Below are positions 1,566 to 9,523 of a DNA stretch of 64,000 nucleotides, piece by piece. The stretch comes from Stenomitos rutilans HA7619-LM2 (GTDB lineage: Bacteria > Cyanobacteriota > Cyanobacteriia > Leptolyngbyales > Leptolyngbyaceae). Within the stretch, counting starts at the first letter, position 1; each line of letters starts with the position of its first letter. Position numbers and translations under genes: made by a program. Where the stretch lies: positions 62,001-126,000 of the forward strand of contig JAHHIE010000008.1 of the NCBI GenBank assembly GCA_019358945.1, in the 5' to 3' direction. The notes beneath the pieces were generated by a model that was not told the origin of the DNA, searched no databases, and was given only the letters and a program-made list of their open reading frames with translations.

Positions 1566-1862
1566 ATGACCCCACAGCTTGTAGCCGCGATCGCTGCCAT
1601 CCAAACGCTTTCACCCACAGAGCGCCAACAACTGCTGCAAATTCTCACCCAAAGCAGCGATTCAGCCTCAAATTCTCAACCCGACCTCAGTGCCCTCAGT
1701 GCCCAGTTTTGGCAAGGCATCTCACTCCAGCAGCTACGCGCTACCCAAACCCCCACGACCGTTCATAGCCTCAAAGATCTCGCCGCTGACTTTTGGCCCA
1801 CAGAAGACTCGATTGATGATTTCTTGTTCTTCTTGCGACAACAGCGTCAAGCGGTGAGCTAG
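1566..1862 (+). CDS. Probable antitoxin partner of the adjacent PIN-domain toxin
   Basis: 98 residues. The ATG at 1566 is preceded by a good Shine-Dalgarno GGAGGT at 1555-1560. The protein begins with a predicted helical region (TPQLVAAIAAIQTLSPTERQ) and continues through a Ser/Gln-rich linker. It ends in an acidic, aromatic tail (DFWPTEDSIDDFLFFLRQQR), as expected of antitoxins that wrap a PIN toxin. The toxin gene follows 10 bp after the stop, which supports a two-gene operon. No HTH or AbrB motif is clear, so the antitoxin class is unknown and the role is inferred from position. Confidence 0.65.
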   Translation: MTPQLVAAIAAIQTLSPTERQQLLQILTQSSDSASNSQPDLSALSAQFWQGISLQQLRATQTPTTVHSLKDLAADFWPTEDSIDDFLFFLRQQRQAVS

Positions 1863-1872
1863 CCAAACGCTC

Positions 1873-2274
1873 ATGAGTCTTCTCCTGATTGATACGGACA
1901 TTGCCTCCTTCATCTTCAAAGGCAGCGACTATGCCGACCCTTATCTACCACTCTTGAACGCTCAGGAATTGGCACTGTCATTTATGACCGTCGCTGAGTT
2001 GTTCCAGTGGACAATCTCGCGCCAGTGGGGCGATCGTCGCCTCGCACAGCTAGAGCAATACCTGTCGAATTATCTGATTATCTCGGTCGATCAGCCCCTT
2101 TGTCGTCAGTGGGCACAGGTTCGCAGCGATCGCCAAAATTTGGGGCGACCGATTTCCCCTCAGGACGCTTGGATTGCAGCAACAGCTCTACGCCACGATT
2201 TACCGCTAATCACTCACAACATCAAAGACTTCCTTGAAATTCCCAATCTACGGCTTAGCACCTCTTCACCCTAG
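1873..2274 (+). CDS. vapC: PIN-domain ribonuclease toxin (VapC-like)
   Basis: 133 residues, the usual size for VapC. The acidic residues of the PIN active site are visible: the N-terminal LLIDTDIASF (two Asp), TVAELF (Glu) after about 40 residues, SPQDAWIAAT (Asp), and a C-terminal ITHNIKDF (Asp). PIN toxins are Mg-dependent endoribonucleases that cut specific RNAs such as tRNAs when their antitoxin is degraded. The gene sits 10 bp downstream of its presumed antitoxin. Its stop lies only 20 bp before the first attC-like site at 2294, the arrangement expected of a gene cassette. All catalytic residues are present, so it looks intact. Confidence 0.85.
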   Translation: MSLLLIDTDIASFIFKGSDYADPYLPLLNAQELALSFMTVAELFQWTISRQWGDRRLAQLEQYLSNYLIISVDQPLCRQWAQVRSDRQNLGRPISPQDAWIAATALRHDLPLITHNIKDFLEIPNLRLSTSSP

Positions 2275-2293: not shown

Positions 2294-2378
2294 AGCTAAC
2301 AAATCGTTGCAGCGGCGGAATAAAAGTTATCGTTAGGAGTCATGGATTACAAGCCGCCGCTGAACACGACCGTTAGCT
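2294..2378 (+). repeat. attC-like recombination site 1
   Basis: Outer boxes are AGCTAAC (2294-2300) and GTTAGCT (2372-2378), perfect inverse complements. Inner arms are CAGCGGCGG (2310-2318) and CCGCCGCTG (2354-2362), also perfect complements. The flanking base order (TCGTTG on the left, AACACGACC on the right) leaves unpaired bases, as in integron attC stems. The left 30 bases from 2295 are identical to those of site 2 from 5292. The site starts 20 bp after the vapC stop. I infer a cassette recombination site. No integrase gene is in the window. Confidence 0.6.
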
Positions 2379-2574
2379 TGCTCGGTATCGGGTCTTTGCA
2401 GATTGTCGGTGCCACCACGATCGCCCAGAAAATGGTCGGTGGAGGCAGTGGTTTGAGTGTTGTCTGGGGTGGCGAAAGCGTCCAGGAAGTTGTCAAAAGA
2501 CCGGAGCCGAAACCCCAGTTTTCTCAAGTAATTTAACACCAAGCCTTGATGGGTTCACAAACGGCACTGACAGA

Positions 2575-3360
2575 TTAGGAGGACTGTACATCCAGTAAAA
2601 ATCGATGATTGAGAGGTTGAACGGGGCGAGCATTGAGAGGAAAAATTCGTGTGAACTGATCAATTTGAGCCTGTGAGACTTCGATCGGATCATGGAATAC
2701 CACCCAGTTTACTATTTCAGAACAGGGCGGGGTTGTGAGAGAGCCGAAGTACTCATAGGCCTCTCGCCCAGCAGGGAGAAGGCTGGAGATCGGGACTTTA
2801 GCACCCGAAACGACTTTCTCTGGTTGTTTCTTTGATGGCATTGCCGCCCAAATAGGCTTTAACACGTCATTTTCTTTTCCGGCTTGCAAGAAAACACCCA
2901 GCACAGCCAGTTCACCTTTTGAGTCCTTGTGAACCAGGTGCAATTCCATTGGGTAAGCCTTGCTCATCAAGCTGTGTTCACTGGGATGATGGAAATGAAA
3001 CTGGATCAGCTCATACACAGTGCCATTTAACGTGATCTGGTTTCCAGGTCCCGCATTGATTTGAATCGTATGTCCATTGTTGAGAACCCGCAAAGGGATA
3101 TCGTGATAGGCAACCTGGATGGGTGATAGTTCAGCCTTAACCATCTTCTGCAAATTAACCGGAGATTGCTGCTGCCCAGCTTTGCAAGCCTGATAGTCTG
3201 CTGAGAGATCTCCCCAGTGGGTGGGATCTTCTGCACCCACATAGCCCCACTCTGCATGATTCTCGCTGGCGATCGCGGCAGTCAAGGAACGACCCCCAAC
3301 CCCTACTGCTGTGCCCACACCACCAATCGTTAATAGCTTTAACAGGTTGCGTCTGTCCAT
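2575..3360 (-). CDS. ecaA: Periplasmic alpha-type carbonic anhydrase
   Basis: About 261 residues from the ATG at 3360, which follows AGGAGT. A longer frame exists upstream but lacks a ribosome binding site. The N-terminus DRRNLLKLL followed by a Gly/Ala-rich hydrophobic stretch resembles a twin-arginine signal, so export to the periplasm is likely. Alpha-carbonic anhydrase features are clear: WGYVGAEDPTHWGDL, QQQSPVNL, the zinc ligands in QFHFHHPSEH and ELHLVH, and SLTTPPCSE near the C-terminus. The enzyme interconverts CO2 and bicarbonate and is the EcaA type of cyanobacteria. It runs opposite to its neighbours between attC-like sites 1 and 2. A second, unrelated carbonic anhydrase (beta class) lies at 56 kb. 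Confidence 0.92.
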   Translation of the reverse strand: MDRRNLLKLLTIGGVGTAVGVGGRSLTAAIASENHAEWGYVGAEDPTHWGDLSADYQACKAGQQQSPVNLQKMVKAELSPIQVAYHDIPLRVLNNGHTIQINAGPGNQITLNGTVYELIQFHFHHPSEHSLMSKAYPMELHLVHKDSKGELAVLGVFLQAGKENDVLKPIWAAMPSKKQPEKVVSGAKVPISSLLPAGREAYEYFGSLTTPPCSEIVNWVVFHDPIEVSQAQIDQFTRIFPLNARPVQPLNHRFLLDVQSS

Positions 3361-3569
3361 AAATCTGACTCCTGATAATTTGGTTGAAATATACAACTTT
3401 GCAATCTCTTGAGCAATTTGATCAATATTTCTCTGGATTTCTCTAGACGGTTCGACAGTTCTTCAAAGTTTGCCTTCACAATTATGTAGAAACGATTGCA
3501 ATTGTAGGAATCTAATTTGATCTCTGAAAAACTGTCAAAACTAAATTCCTGTACAGCTTACGCTTCAGC

Positions 3570-3642
3570 CTCAGCACACTCAGTAAAATTTAGCTTCAGT
3601 ACACTTAGAAAACCGCATTTTGTTTCAGTACACTTAGAAGAA
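3570..3642. promoter_or_regulatory. Triple direct repeat upstream of the carbonic anhydrase gene
   Basis: Copies of TTCAGTACACTTAGAA start at 3595 and 3624. A weaker copy CTCAGCACACTCAGTAAAA starts at 3570. Spacing is 25 and 29 bp. The unit is an imperfect palindrome (TTC...GAA ends around AGTACACT). Position, 210-280 bp upstream of the carbonic anhydrase start, fits an operator, but the binding protein is unknown. Confidence 0.4.
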
Positions 3643-4170
3643 ATCACACCAGGTCACCACGTCAGTCTCATTTGATTTCTCCCAGATGATTTTAGCCATC
3701 GTTCACTCGTCAACATAAAAAACTTTTCACAGGTTGTCAATTCGTAGACTTAGTTGCATAGTCATTACCATCAGACTGCAAGTACTCCTTTAGGTAGAGT
3801 AAATCTCTAAAAGATCACGCGTTTCAAATATCTTTAGAGTGAGCTTAAAACAAGCCTAATTTAATAACTGGTTCATTTCTCAATCGGCTAAACGCCCTCT
3901 ATCAAGCGTTACAAGAGATTAAAAAAGGTTAAAAACGATTGATTGAAATCACTAATGAGGTAATCAGGATAGGATTTGTTTATTCAATTAACATCTCTTA
4001 TTTTTGTTTTTGTGCCGCCACTATTTTTACTTTTCCACCTTCTAATAAAGCTAATCCATGTCATTGACTGCATCTTCAGGCGGAGGTTGAGCTACCACTT
4101 TAGATAGAGAGTATGGTTGATACCTGTGTGATACGCTACCAGCAAAAATTACCGGGTATTAGGGAAGACG

Positions 4171-4213
4171 AAGTTGCATAGACTACATTTTTGAGAAGTT
4201 ACATAGATTACAT
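4171..4213. promoter_or_regulatory. Pair of 18-bp direct repeats before the DUF4239 gene
   Basis: AAGTTGCATAGACTACAT (4171-4188) and AAGTTACATAGATTACAT (4196-4213) are direct repeats 25 bp apart, starting about 100 and 75 bp before the ATG at 4271. A third, weaker match (TAGTTGCATAGTCATTAC) lies near 3751. They may be operator sites; no regulator can be named. Confidence 0.4.
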
Positions 4214-4270
4214 CAGAGACGGGGTCATCTTGGCTCTCCGGCTCGCAAAACGCAGTTATGGAGGACTAAT

Positions 4271-5068
4271 ATGTTTTTGTGGATGTACAGCTTGCCTACT
4301 TGGCTGATGGCCGTCTTGTTCATCGTTGGCTTCGTTGCCTTTGGCTGGGCAGGCGTGTTCTTCGTCCGACCCGTCGTGCGGCGGAGATTGGGCCAGAACG
4401 CAGACCACAACGAGCACGTGACCTTTATCGTGAATGTTATAGGCTTGTTCTACGGCTTGCTGGTTGGCCTCGTGGTGGTAGCGGCATTCCAGCACTATTC
4501 CGATGTCCAGGAAAAAGTTTCCAACGAAGCCACCGCCCTTGGTGTGCTCTACCGTGACATCGCTGGCTTGCCCGACCCGCTGCGTAGCGACCTGCACGCG
4601 CAGTTGAGCGACTACAACTTGTACCTGATTAACGAAGTCTGGCCGATCCAGCAGCGGACAGGAGATGTCCCGTACCGAGAGGTCACGGCTAAAGTTAACG
4701 CCGTTCAGGATAAGCTTGTAACCTTCAAGCCCGACGGGGCTGCCCAAACCAATAGCCTGTACTTTTCCATGCAAAATCTGGATGAGTACATCAAGCTTCG
4801 CCGGGATCGGCTGTACGAGATCAATAACGGGTTGCTTGATATCCTCTACTACGTCCTGCTTTTCGGTGCGGCCCTTCTCATTGGGGCAAGTTGGTTTCTT
4901 TCACTGGAGAGCCGGGGAACCCACTTTGCGGTGACAGGCATTGTAGCTCTATCGATCGGTCTATTCCTCTTTCTAATCGTCGCCCTAGACTACCCGCTCC
5001 GCAGCAGTATCAGCATCGGTCCGAGGTCATTTGAAGTCCTTCAAACGACCTTGATAAAACCTCAATAA
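4271..5068 (+). CDS. DUF4239 (bestrophin-like) membrane protein
   Basis: 265 residues, ATG at 4271 preceded by GGAGG. There are four hydrophobic segments: two near the N-terminus (PTWLMAVLFIVGFVAFGWA; VIGLFYGLLVGLVVVAAF) and two near the C-terminus (LLDILYYVLLFGAALLIGAS; IVALSIGLFLFLIVALDYP). A hydrophilic helical domain of about 110 residues lies between them. This is the architecture of the DUF4239 family, distantly likened to bestrophin channels. The biochemical role is not established. The gene body has almost no GCGATCGC motifs, unlike most genes in the window, which may mean recent transfer. It ends 223 bp before attC-like site 2. Confidence 0.8.
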   Translation: MFLWMYSLPTWLMAVLFIVGFVAFGWAGVFFVRPVVRRRLGQNADHNEHVTFIVNVIGLFYGLLVGLVVVAAFQHYSDVQEKVSNEATALGVLYRDIAGLPDPLRSDLHAQLSDYNLYLINEVWPIQQRTGDVPYREVTAKVNAVQDKLVTFKPDGAAQTNSLYFSMQNLDEYIKLRRDRLYEINNGLLDILYYVLLFGAALLIGASWFLSLESRGTHFAVTGIVALSIGLFLFLIVALDYPLRSSISIGPRSFEVLQTTLIKPQ

Positions 5069-5290
5069 TACGCATGAGGCGATCGCGTTCCCAAGGCGTG
5101 GTGCCCGCTGCAAACCAGCGATGCGTGGATCGTGGAGTAGCGTGTATGTAACCGGTCACAGGGTTTGTTGTATACCGCACAGATCAGCGCATCCTATTCC
5201 GCACCCATACCCTCCGCAACGCTCGCGCTGCGTGGTGGTGGCGCAATGCCATCGCGAGCCACTGTGACCTATTCCAATCCCAACGATGCG

Positions 5291-5374
5291 GGCTAACAAA
5301 TCGTTGCAGCGGCGGAATAAAGATTGGTCAATGGAGATGCTCAAGTTACCCGCCGCTGCACTTAACCGTTAGTC
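5291..5374 (+). repeat. attC-like recombination site 2
   Basis: Outer boxes are GGCTAAC (5291-5297) and GTTAGTC (5368-5374), complementary at 6 of 7 positions. Inner arms are CAGCGGCGG (5307-5315) and CCGCCGCTG (5350-5358), perfect complements. The left arm is identical to site 1 over 30 bases, while the loop between the arms differs. It has the same orientation as sites 1 and 3. A conserved stem with a variable loop is typical of attC families. Confidence 0.6.
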
Positions 5375-5525
5375 TGCAAATCTACGTGTAAGTGCATAGA
5401 TAAAAGCTTATCTGTAAGAAGCGTTCAACTTTGTAACTATAGATTCATCGTCTTTAGCAAGAGAAGGCGATGAATCTATTTGGTTTTGAAGACTCACCAG
5501 TTCAGAAATCTGGGAGTCACGATCG

Positions 5526-5834
5526 TTATTTGTAGTGTGGCGAGTTCAAGAAACGACTGGCTTCTTCAGTCACGTTACCGTCGAAAATTCGGGTAGTGAA
5601 TGCTGCCCCAATTTCCTTGGCTTCCGTTGGGAAGTAGTCGTAGGCAAAGGCTTGAGCGTTCTCAAGTGAATCGAACACATAGAAGCCACCAACCGAGTCG
5701 TTTTGCACCCCGCTTAACCAAGTTTTGTTCTGAAGACCTTTTTGGCTTTTCAAGATGGGGTTGAGCCTGCGCCAAGGAGCTTGATCAAAAGGCACAGAAA
5801 GCTGCACTTCGGTATAGACAAAAAACTTGCTCAT
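5526..5834 (-). CDS. YdhR-like putative monooxygenase
   Basis: 102 residues. It resembles the small YdhR/antibiotic-biosynthesis-monooxygenase-type proteins of ferredoxin-like fold: a beta strand (FFVYTEVQLSVPF), a helix leading to LKSQKGLQNKTWLSG, then the hallmark GGFYVFDSLENAQAFAYDY and a C-terminal TTRIFDGNVTEEASRF. Such proteins are usually dimers. Some oxidise quinone-like or aromatic substrates, but the substrate here is unknown. It is transcribed divergently from an HxlR-family regulator with a short shared promoter, a common pairing that suggests induction by an electrophile or redox signal. The pair lies between attC-like sites 2 and 3. Confidence 0.75.
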   Translation of the reverse strand: MSKFFVYTEVQLSVPFDQAPWRRLNPILKSQKGLQNKTWLSGVQNDSVGGFYVFDSLENAQAFAYDYFPTEAKEIGAAFTTRIFDGNVTEEASRFLNSPHYK

Positions 5835-5908
5835 TCCGTTACTCCAAATTTAGTTCGTGGCTCGATGTGAAGTCCGGACTCACATTCTTACTGTAGGCAT
5901 CTGCTATC

Positions 5909-5922
5909 ATTACGTCAATAAT
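5909..5922. promoter_or_regulatory. Candidate HxlR operator
   Basis: ATTACGTCAATAAT is an imperfect palindrome (ATTA...TAAT) in the short gap between the divergent YdhR-like and HxlR genes. It is placed where an autoregulating HxlR dimer would bind. An ATG at 5921 falls inside it, which argues for the downstream ATG at 5963 as the true start of the regulator. Confidence 0.4.
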
Positions 5923-5962
5923 GCACTTTTTCGGTAGATACTCTCAAAAAGGAAAGTATGGA

Positions 5963-6337
5963 ATGACCTCAAAGGAACGATATACGATGTGTCCGGTTGA
6001 TGCTGCGATCGCGCTAATGTCAGGAAAGTGGAAGCCGCGTATTCTTTGGAAACTGCACCTCTATCAGGTTTTGCGTTACAGTGAATTTCAGCGAGAAATG
6101 CCCAGCATCACCCATAAAATGCTTGCCCAACAGTTACGCGAGTTAGAACGAGATGGTTTGATCATTCGTACCATGTATGCAGTCATGCCACCCAAAGTGG
6201 AATATCGGCTCTCGGAGTTCGGTCAGACGCTTGCTCCAGTCATTAACTCGTTAGTCACTTGGAGTCGTGCCCATGAACCTGAGGTTCGTGCGGTGCTGGA
6301 GCGAAAAGATCTAGCCGATTCTGCATCAGTAGGGTAA
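5963..6337 (+). CDS. HxlR-family winged-helix transcriptional regulator
   Basis: 124 residues from the ATG at 5963, preceded by AAAGGAAAG. The family signature is clear: MCPVDAAIALMSGKWKPRILW with the conserved Cys near the N-terminus, then LRYSEFQREMPSITHKMLAQQLRELERDGLI (recognition helix and wing) and VEYRLSEFGQTLAPV. HxlR/DUF24 proteins act as dimeric repressors or activators that sense aldehydes, quinones or disulfide stress through the N-terminal Cys. It probably controls the divergent YdhR-like gene. Its stop lies only 30 bp before attC-like site 3. Confidence 0.9.
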   Translation: MTSKERYTMCPVDAAIALMSGKWKPRILWKLHLYQVLRYSEFQREMPSITHKMLAQQLRELERDGLIIRTMYAVMPPKVEYRLSEFGQTLAPVINSLVTWSRAHEPEVRAVLERKDLADSASVG

Positions 6338-6366
6338 ACCACATTCACGGATCTCTCTTAACAGCA

Positions 6367-6449
6367 GGCTAACAATTCGAATGCAACGGACGAAAGTCAT
6401 TGGTGTTGAGTTTGAGGTTATCTACCGCCGCTGATTTGAGCCGTTAGTG
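6367..6449 (+). repeat. attC-like recombination site 3 (partly degenerate)
   Basis: Outer boxes are GGCTAAC (6367-6373) and GTTAGTG (6443-6449), complementary at 5 of 7 positions. The right arm CCGCCGCTG (6425-6433) is kept, but the left arm reads CAACGGACG rather than CAGCGGCGG, so the stem is weakened. It begins 30 bp after the HxlR stop, in the same orientation as the other two sites. Confidence 0.5.
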
Positions 6450-6875: not shown

Positions 6876-7323
6876 AAGCTCAATAACCGAATGGCTCTGT
6901 GGTCATCCTAACAAGCGTGATTTCCAGTAGCGCGATCGATCCCCTTCTGTGATGCGATCGCCCTAACGTTAGTGATATACGATTTCACTCTCCGGTAGTA
7001 GTGAGACCTTAAACCTTCTTAAGTTTTTTCGTTCCCACAAAGAGGTAGAGTCAAAGACGACTTCTTTAATCATTCCAACGTTTGCAGATGGACGTTGCTT
7101 GAGAGGTTGTTGGCACCATGAGCGCATTACTCTACGGTGCACCAACATAGTGGCTCGATGCCAACGCTCAAGCAGCGGTAAATATGTGTGAATCTTGGCG
7201 TGCGATCGTTCTATTCCTTTGCTGCTTGCTCATTGCTTTTGAGCGGTGTTGTCTTTCTGCGATGAAGGGAGTGTGAACCATTCACGCATGTTTCAGATGG
7301 CTTCTAAATCTGGCTAAAACCCT
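6876..7323. other. Gene-free stretch before pfkA
   Basis: About 450 bp with no convincing frame. It has three GCGATCG-type motifs near 6932, 6953 and 7201. At 6906-6974 there is a weak attC-like arrangement (TCCTAAC...GTTAGTG) that I do not accept as a site. The 7040-7180 part looks like decayed coding sequence, but I could not assign a family. Confidence 0.4.
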
Positions 7324-9293: not shown

Positions 9294-9523
9294 TCAACAC
9301 ATCCTCCGAAAGCGAGTTTAAGTACATTCATACAGATGTTTTGATGAGGAGAGCAGATCCGGGTGTTACCCATCGTTAGGCATAGCAGTCTTTTTCCACA
9401 AGATTGGGCACCTTTACCAAACCTTTAACTTAAGCAGGAAATGAATGCTTAACTTCAGGGTTCTTGCAGGCTAACAAATAAAAACGGTATAAACTAAGAC
9501 AACTAAGTTTTCTGGGCCGTCCA

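Follow-up and report, generated by a model that had tools for sequence, protein, structure and literature searches.

Clusters of attC sites lacking integron integrases (CALINs) are defined in IntegronFinder 2.0 by the presence of at least two attC sites (PMC9024848). In cyanobacteria, integrons were on record by 2008 (PMC2426708), and a cyanobacteria-specific attC model exists (PMC8352920). CALINs of Xanthomonas citri pv. citri persist at conserved loci after the loss of intI (PMC12444791), and cassette insertion outside integrons, at attG sites, has been shown experimentally in other bacteria (Loot et al. 2024, as cited in PMC12444791 and PMC12901181). Here, we describe three attC-like repeats in a 64,000-nucleotide stretch of the cyanobacterium Stenomitos rutilans HA7619-LM2, hereafter the window (C117:62001-126000; contig JAHHIE010000008.1), which belongs to a 7.28-Mb draft genome of 119 contigs rated 99.9% complete, with Leptolyngbyaceae-type cyanobacteria as its nearest relatives. 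An earlier note, made from the sequence alone, had proposed that the repeats form an integrase-less cassette array. We conclude with high confidence that they are integron attC sites of a CALIN, because of their scores with a covariance model, the integrase (IntI)-linked arrays in relatives, their co-orientation, their placement at gene ends, the match between cassette starts and ends, the covariation of their arms, the eroded intI in the same genome and the insertion polymorphism among relatives.

Three co-oriented repeats with attC anatomy

The three repeats (Table 1) lie on the forward strand at the coordinates given in the earlier note, with spacings of 2,997 and 1,076 bp, and all are co-oriented. 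Their outer boxes are AGCTAAC/GTTAGCT, GGCTAAC/GTTAGTC and GGCTAAC/GTTAGTG in sites 1, 2 and 3, respectively, so that TAAC/GTTA, with its AAC/GTT core, occurs in all three, and the putative G|TT points fall after 2372, 5368 and 6443, as the note had claimed. In each site, a spacer of 5-6 nt remains unpaired, the left arm of the inner stem holds one extra base (a top-strand G), and the loop, ~35 nt long, is variable. R, a spacer, L, an extrahelical base and a variable terminal structure are likewise the parts by which attC sites have been described (PMC8946536). The inner stem of site 1 is formed by GTT.CAGCGGCGG and CCGCCGCTG.AAC. The 30 identical bases attributed to sites 1 and 2 are indeed present (2295-2324 and 5292-5321). 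The description of the sites as inverted repeats with common inner arms and variable loops needed amendment: the hairpins and the variable loops stand, but the hairpin is not a simple one, because it is interrupted by the unpaired spacers and by the extra base of the left inner arm, and the arm of site 3 is imperfect (CAACGGACG instead of CAGCGGCGG). Over 47 sites of the same genome, pairing reaches 92.9% in the R helix and 90.6% in the outer L helix, with compensatory changes in 10 of 16 pairs, and the hairpin covariation is 0.287 vs 0.114 in shuffled data.

Sites 1 and 3 begin ~20 and ~30 bp past the stop codons of vapC (2274) and of the HxlR-family gene (6337), as had been noted, and site 2 begins 223 bp past that of the bestrophin-like gene. 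The G+C-rich stems located 20-30 bp downstream of the stop codons at sites 1 and 3 are also what transcription terminators, or other RNA elements at gene ends, would look like. However, no T run follows the stem, the ~35-nt loop is variable, the outer TAAC/GTTA boxes are conserved together with unpaired spacers, no Rfam match was found at E<=1, and only some 40 genes in the 7-Mb genome carry such an element, which makes a terminator function hardly credible.

Relation to integrase-linked arrays

A search of relatives with the left-arm pattern matched 15 of 58 genomes, while the reversed control pattern matched none, and it yielded full attC-like hairpins. For detection we used a covariance model, R1, composed of 15 sites of relatives with those of the window left out; it is not IntegronFinder's own attC model. 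With filters off, R1 returned only the three sites in the window, at 84.6, 68.9 and 45.9 bits (E 3e-22 to 9e-11), far above the next-best matches of 14.5 bits (reverse strand of site 2) and 14.3 bits (reverse strand of site 1); the covariance-model check proposed in the earlier note, run here with R1, therefore lifts the sites well clear of background. A repeat at 9466-9481 (GCAGGCTAACAAAT) was rejected as a fourth site, having no partner arm. Exact matches to the left arm outside cyanobacteria (Neisseriaceae, Acidobacteria and other metagenome-assembled genomes) lack the right arm and were set aside as chance or unrelated.

The model also found sites at integrons elsewhere: five adjoin an annotated 'integron integrase' on the Kovacikia plasmid pB, one lies between blaOXA-256 and aac(6')-Ib on the class 3 integron plasmid pUL3AT, and one adjoins the integron integrase of Diaphorobacter; the last two, on proteobacterial integron plasmids, stand at cassette ends. 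R1 thus detects attC sites of independent integrons. Searching a plasmid collection with site 1 gave a single weak match, in Kovacikia, which is itself another attC.

The integron integrase family TIGR02249 exceeded the NCBI cut-off in 125 of 390 genomes drawn class-wide, and a strong match, an intact IntI, was present in five of the six same-genus relatives (the genome of the window is G000). Arrays adjoining intact TIGR02249 integrases were detected by R1 in both the same genus and the same family. About a dozen co-oriented sites in the sister species G006 (C8) extend up to a divergent intI, and further arrays of ~7-9 sites each lie by an intact IntI in G001 (C6, same genus), G008 (C20) and G019.

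Sites across the genome and cassette boundaries

The results for the whole genome rest on searches plus fetched stretches of G000. R1 detected 33 sites at E<1e-3 in a single scan, and 41 at >=25 bits when local scans of fetched loci were included. In six genomes without IntI the counts were 0, 0, 1, 1, 1 and 6; the same-genus G003, also without IntI, retains 29 sites. Ten loci of the own genome contain 2-4 sites inside 4 kb, the remaining sites being mostly single, and every neighbouring pair is co-oriented (17/17). A same-strand open reading frame (ORF) of >=90 aa ends at -30 to +100 of the left end of the site in 35 of 45 cases, compared with 12 for mirrored sites and a mean of 8.9 (maximum 16; 300 draws) for random intergenic points. 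The TAA of the R'' box doubles as the stop codon at several sites, and several sites show visible decay. The array in the window is one of about ten CALINs in this genome; the earlier note, which had treated it as a single array, was right about its existence but under-called the extent.

If cassettes are inserted at G|TT, the start of a cassette would match the reverse complement of the end of the same cassette, 0.7-4 kb away. We compared the bases after GTT at one site with the reverse complement of those before AAC at the following site, over eight positions beyond GTTA in 17 pairs. The mean match was 5.12 of 8, vs 3.17 +/- 0.30 with the ends permuted, and none of 20,000 permutations reached it; the two sides of one and the same site matched less well (3.76 and 2.71). 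The clearest cases are C92, which has GTTAGGTGTCT at both cassette ends, C53 and C17. In the window, start and end pair over 10 positions in cassettes 2 and 3, with one or two G-T pairs (two in cassette 2). No cassette end is complementary to the right flank of site 3, as would be expected of an old target site.

The scatter over ~26 places, many with a single site, and the recurrence in many cyanobacteria are what an ordinary dispersed intergenic repeat family would produce, whose palindromes (resembling miniature inverted-repeat transposable elements, MITEs, or repetitive extragenic palindromes, REPs) would look like attC by chance. The earlier note had counted genome-wide recurrence, if unrelated to gene ends and with conserved loops, as a refutation. 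The recurrence is real, but its form is that of cassettes: the loops vary while the arms covary, all clustered neighbours share one orientation, gene ends adjoin the sites on a single side (35, vs 12 for mirrored sites), cassette starts match the ends of their own cassettes, and arrays abut IntI genes in relatives. Neither independence from gene ends nor mobility without a neighbouring gene, as in MITE/REP elements, was found for the sites of this genome. Since a simple repeat family does not predict start-end complementarity, and since the linkage to IntI also contradicts it, we consider this explanation extremely improbable.

Apart from these tests, three different arrays of G000, on C54, C3 and C4, have an identical right flank (GTTATGTCTGAAAATCCTCGTRTCA), which could be an old shared target, an attI-like remnant or a copied array end. 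C54 and C4 additionally have a 201-bp stretch in common (98.5% identity), ~0.5-1 kb upstream of the arrays.

Eroded integrase genes

The search for intI elsewhere, also suggested in the earlier note, gave no intact gene in the own genome, where the best TIGR02249 score was at most 32.4 bits against a cut-off of 265. An eroded intI (C39:353838-354257) diverges from a co-oriented attC pair that lies 1.3 kb away. Over 35 residues it shares 88.6% identity with an intact IntI of a cyanobacterium; it has an N-terminal insertion with stop codons and has lost residues ~77-199. A second fragment, at C92:13412-13519, shows 61-65% identity over 34-36 residues and is located 5 kb from the attC pair of C92. 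Fragmentary tyrosine-recombinase matches on C110, C52, C22, C42, C23 and C77 were rejected as IntI, since they align weakly (23-34% identity) and resemble other recombinases. A complete integron, with an intact intI and attI, was not found in the genome, which yielded eroded intI only and no attI. The genome formerly had at least one integron platform, and probably two, and has since lost the enzyme.

The CALIN might still be active if a plasmid missing from the assembly supplied an IntI that acts on its cassettes in trans. With its 119 contigs the assembly is a draft, several relatives carry at least one intact IntI, Kovacikia has one on a plasmid, and sites 1 and 2 are close enough to the consensus that they could still be recombinogenic. 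On the other hand, a genome rated 99.9% complete contains decayed intI copies and no intact one, and several of its own sites are visibly decayed. Ongoing activity is therefore quite unlikely, and the array in the window is presumably immobile at present.

Insertion polymorphism among relatives

Most of cassette 3 (5439-6446) has an 82% copy in G006, which is located between cobD and a pentapeptide-repeat gene and ends in a decayed attC. The same two genes adjoin each other, ~70-260 bp apart, in G000, G001, G002, G003 and G004. As the junction is empty in these five genomes, the unit inserted in G006 is cassette 3, ~1.06 kb, at a place free of arrays; the insertion junction was located, but above single-base resolution. 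Comparison thus gives direct evidence that, in this genus, a single cassette has been inserted at an ordinary locus at least once. The 5.9-kb array region of C27 in G000 is likewise absent from G002, G004 and G005, where its flanks lie 2-20 bp apart.

The comparison between relatives that the earlier note had called for accordingly revealed loci with and without cassettes in the genus, but no clean empty site for the array of the window: in relatives, homology is confined to the phosphofructokinase side, beginning at 6991 or 7004, and nothing in them matches the left flank. The G006 homology ahead of the phosphofructokinase gene ends at 6991, 540 bp past site 3.

A second copy of the ydhR-like/HxlR pair of cassette 3 (84%) is present within G000 at C51:15593-16463, with no attC after the pair. 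The homology of cassette 3 with the G006 and C51 copies starts at a 16-bp inverted repeat (5439-5479; ATAGATTCATCG...CGATGAATCTAT), 70 bp inside the start of the cassette.

Cassettes and their cargo

The genes of the array are listed in Table 1, and the functions given for them are predictions from sequence. The cargo named in the earlier note was toxin-antitoxin, carbonic anhydrase and redox-regulator genes. Pfam matches bear out the VapC-like toxin and the carbonic anhydrase, but the antitoxin is assigned by position, and the NCBIfam matches to redox regulators fall below the cut-off. As parts of cassettes, the genes for VapBC, the carbonic anhydrase, the bestrophin-like protein and the HxlR regulator would be acquired cargo and not core genes.

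Two further features were recorded in the window. Three direct repeats of ~23 bp (TTTCAGTACACTTAGAA) occupy 3563-3639, between the carbonic anhydrase and bestrophin-like genes, and an ORF at 586-1185, whose product has no Pfam match, encodes eight consecutive aspartates as well as repeated RRPTPGPP-like motifs.

Table 1 attC sites, cassettes and predicted genes of the array in the window
Feature	Position	Strand	Basis and remarks
Small ORF in antitoxin position upstream of vapC, cassette 1	1566..1862	+	Position only; no Pfam/NCBIfam match
VapC-like PIN-domain toxin gene, final gene of cassette 1	1873..2274	+	Pfam PIN 2e-14; NCBIfam VapC models below cut-off
attC site 1	2294..2378	+	84.6 bits (R1, site excluded); closes cassette 1; predicted cleavage G2372|T2373
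Cassette 2 (2,996 bp)	2373..5368	+	Starts at the G|TT point of site 1, ends with the G of site 2
Alpha-type carbonic anhydrase gene, against array direction	2575..3396	-	Pfam Carb_anhydrase 5e-46
Bestrophin-like (DUF4239) membrane protein gene, along array direction	4271..5068	+	Pfam Bestrophin-like 4e-50
attC site 2	5291..5374	+	68.9 bits (R1); predicted cleavage G5368|T5369
Cassette 3 (1,075 bp)	5369..6443	+	Site positions; 82% copy of 5439-6446 in G006
ydhR-like monooxygenase gene	5526..5834	-	Weak: Pfam ydhR 1.7e-5, 25.1 bits vs cut-off 27.1
HxlR-family regulator gene	5921..6337	+	Pfam HxlR 3e-28; best NCBIfam relatives RrpA/RrpB redox regulators, below cut-off
attC site 3	6367..6449	+	45.9 bits (R1); last of the array; predicted cleavage G6443|T6444

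Discussion

The data support the integrase-less, CALIN-like array that had been proposed, with at least two clustered co-oriented sites and no adjacent intI. We envisage that IntI, a tyrosine recombinase, would have bound the folded single strand of attC and joined it at G|TT to attI, to another attC or to an attG-like target, thereby inserting the cassette. Past insertions of this kind would leave a series of genes, every one with a co-oriented attC behind it, and each cassette would start with bases complementary to those before its own attC. The later decay of the integrase genes would then have stranded the array of the window together with ~40 other attC sites, which would be mobile only with IntI supplied from outside.

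Several observations weigh against assigning the repeats to attC sites of a CALIN. The ends do not conform to the strict RYYYAAC/GTTRRRY boxes invoked in the earlier note, since position 2 of R'' is G and position 6 of R' is a pyrimidine; of that claim, the TAAC/GTTA core is what holds. DNA folding energies of the sites showed no preference for the bottom strand. At sites 1 and 2 there is pairing between the two flanks of the site as well, and for this reason the start-end pairing within the window by itself is compatible with cassettes but not decisive. Neither the left edge of cassette 1 nor any attI was found, and complementarity to the left side of site 1 gave no start. Finally, cassettes 2 and 3 each contain a gene facing the opposite way, which is unusual for cassettes, and cassette 2, at 3 kb, is unusually long for one; it may represent two cassettes with a decayed middle site. 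As to the boxes, other sites of the genome fit the strict form to a mixed degree, and we treated the AAC/GTT core, not the strict boxes, as defining, since the boxes differ among attC sites. A text scan of the window for the strict form misses all three sites and returns only others, and is therefore a poor detector.

Beyond the window, the integron integrases of the genus may time and again have inserted single cassettes into ordinary chromosomal loci outside integrons in the manner of attG insertion, creating a dispersed gene reservoir that outlives the integrase; we hold this broader proposal to be about evenly balanced. The loss of the integrase leaves dozens of captured genes across the genome, tagged by decaying recombination sites. 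Since sister species still possess intact integrases, and single cassettes are shared among them at different loci, the genus is well suited as a natural system in which to ask how frequently cassettes depart from the integron platform and whether an incoming integrase could reawaken the arrays.

Compared with attG insertion, as far as the papers citing Loot et al. 2024 describe it, the single cassette between cobD and the pentapeptide-repeat gene of G006 is alike in lying far from arrays, and differs in being deduced from genomes, with its junction placed above single-base resolution. Like the CALINs of IntegronFinder, the window has three co-oriented sites, at intervals of 1.1 and 3.0 kb, and lacks a neighbouring intI; unlike them, the sites were found with R1, and the genome has about ten clusters plus singles. 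The attC sequence type is that of IntI-linked arrays in the same genus and family, as in cyanobacterial chromosomal integrons, although the integrase here is eroded. As in Xanthomonas citri pv. citri, small arrays outlast the loss of the integrase, whereas here they occupy many scattered loci, some of which are missing in relatives. Integrons and integrase-less arrays are already known; it is less common for single sites and small arrays to be so widely scattered when the integrases of the genome are dead.

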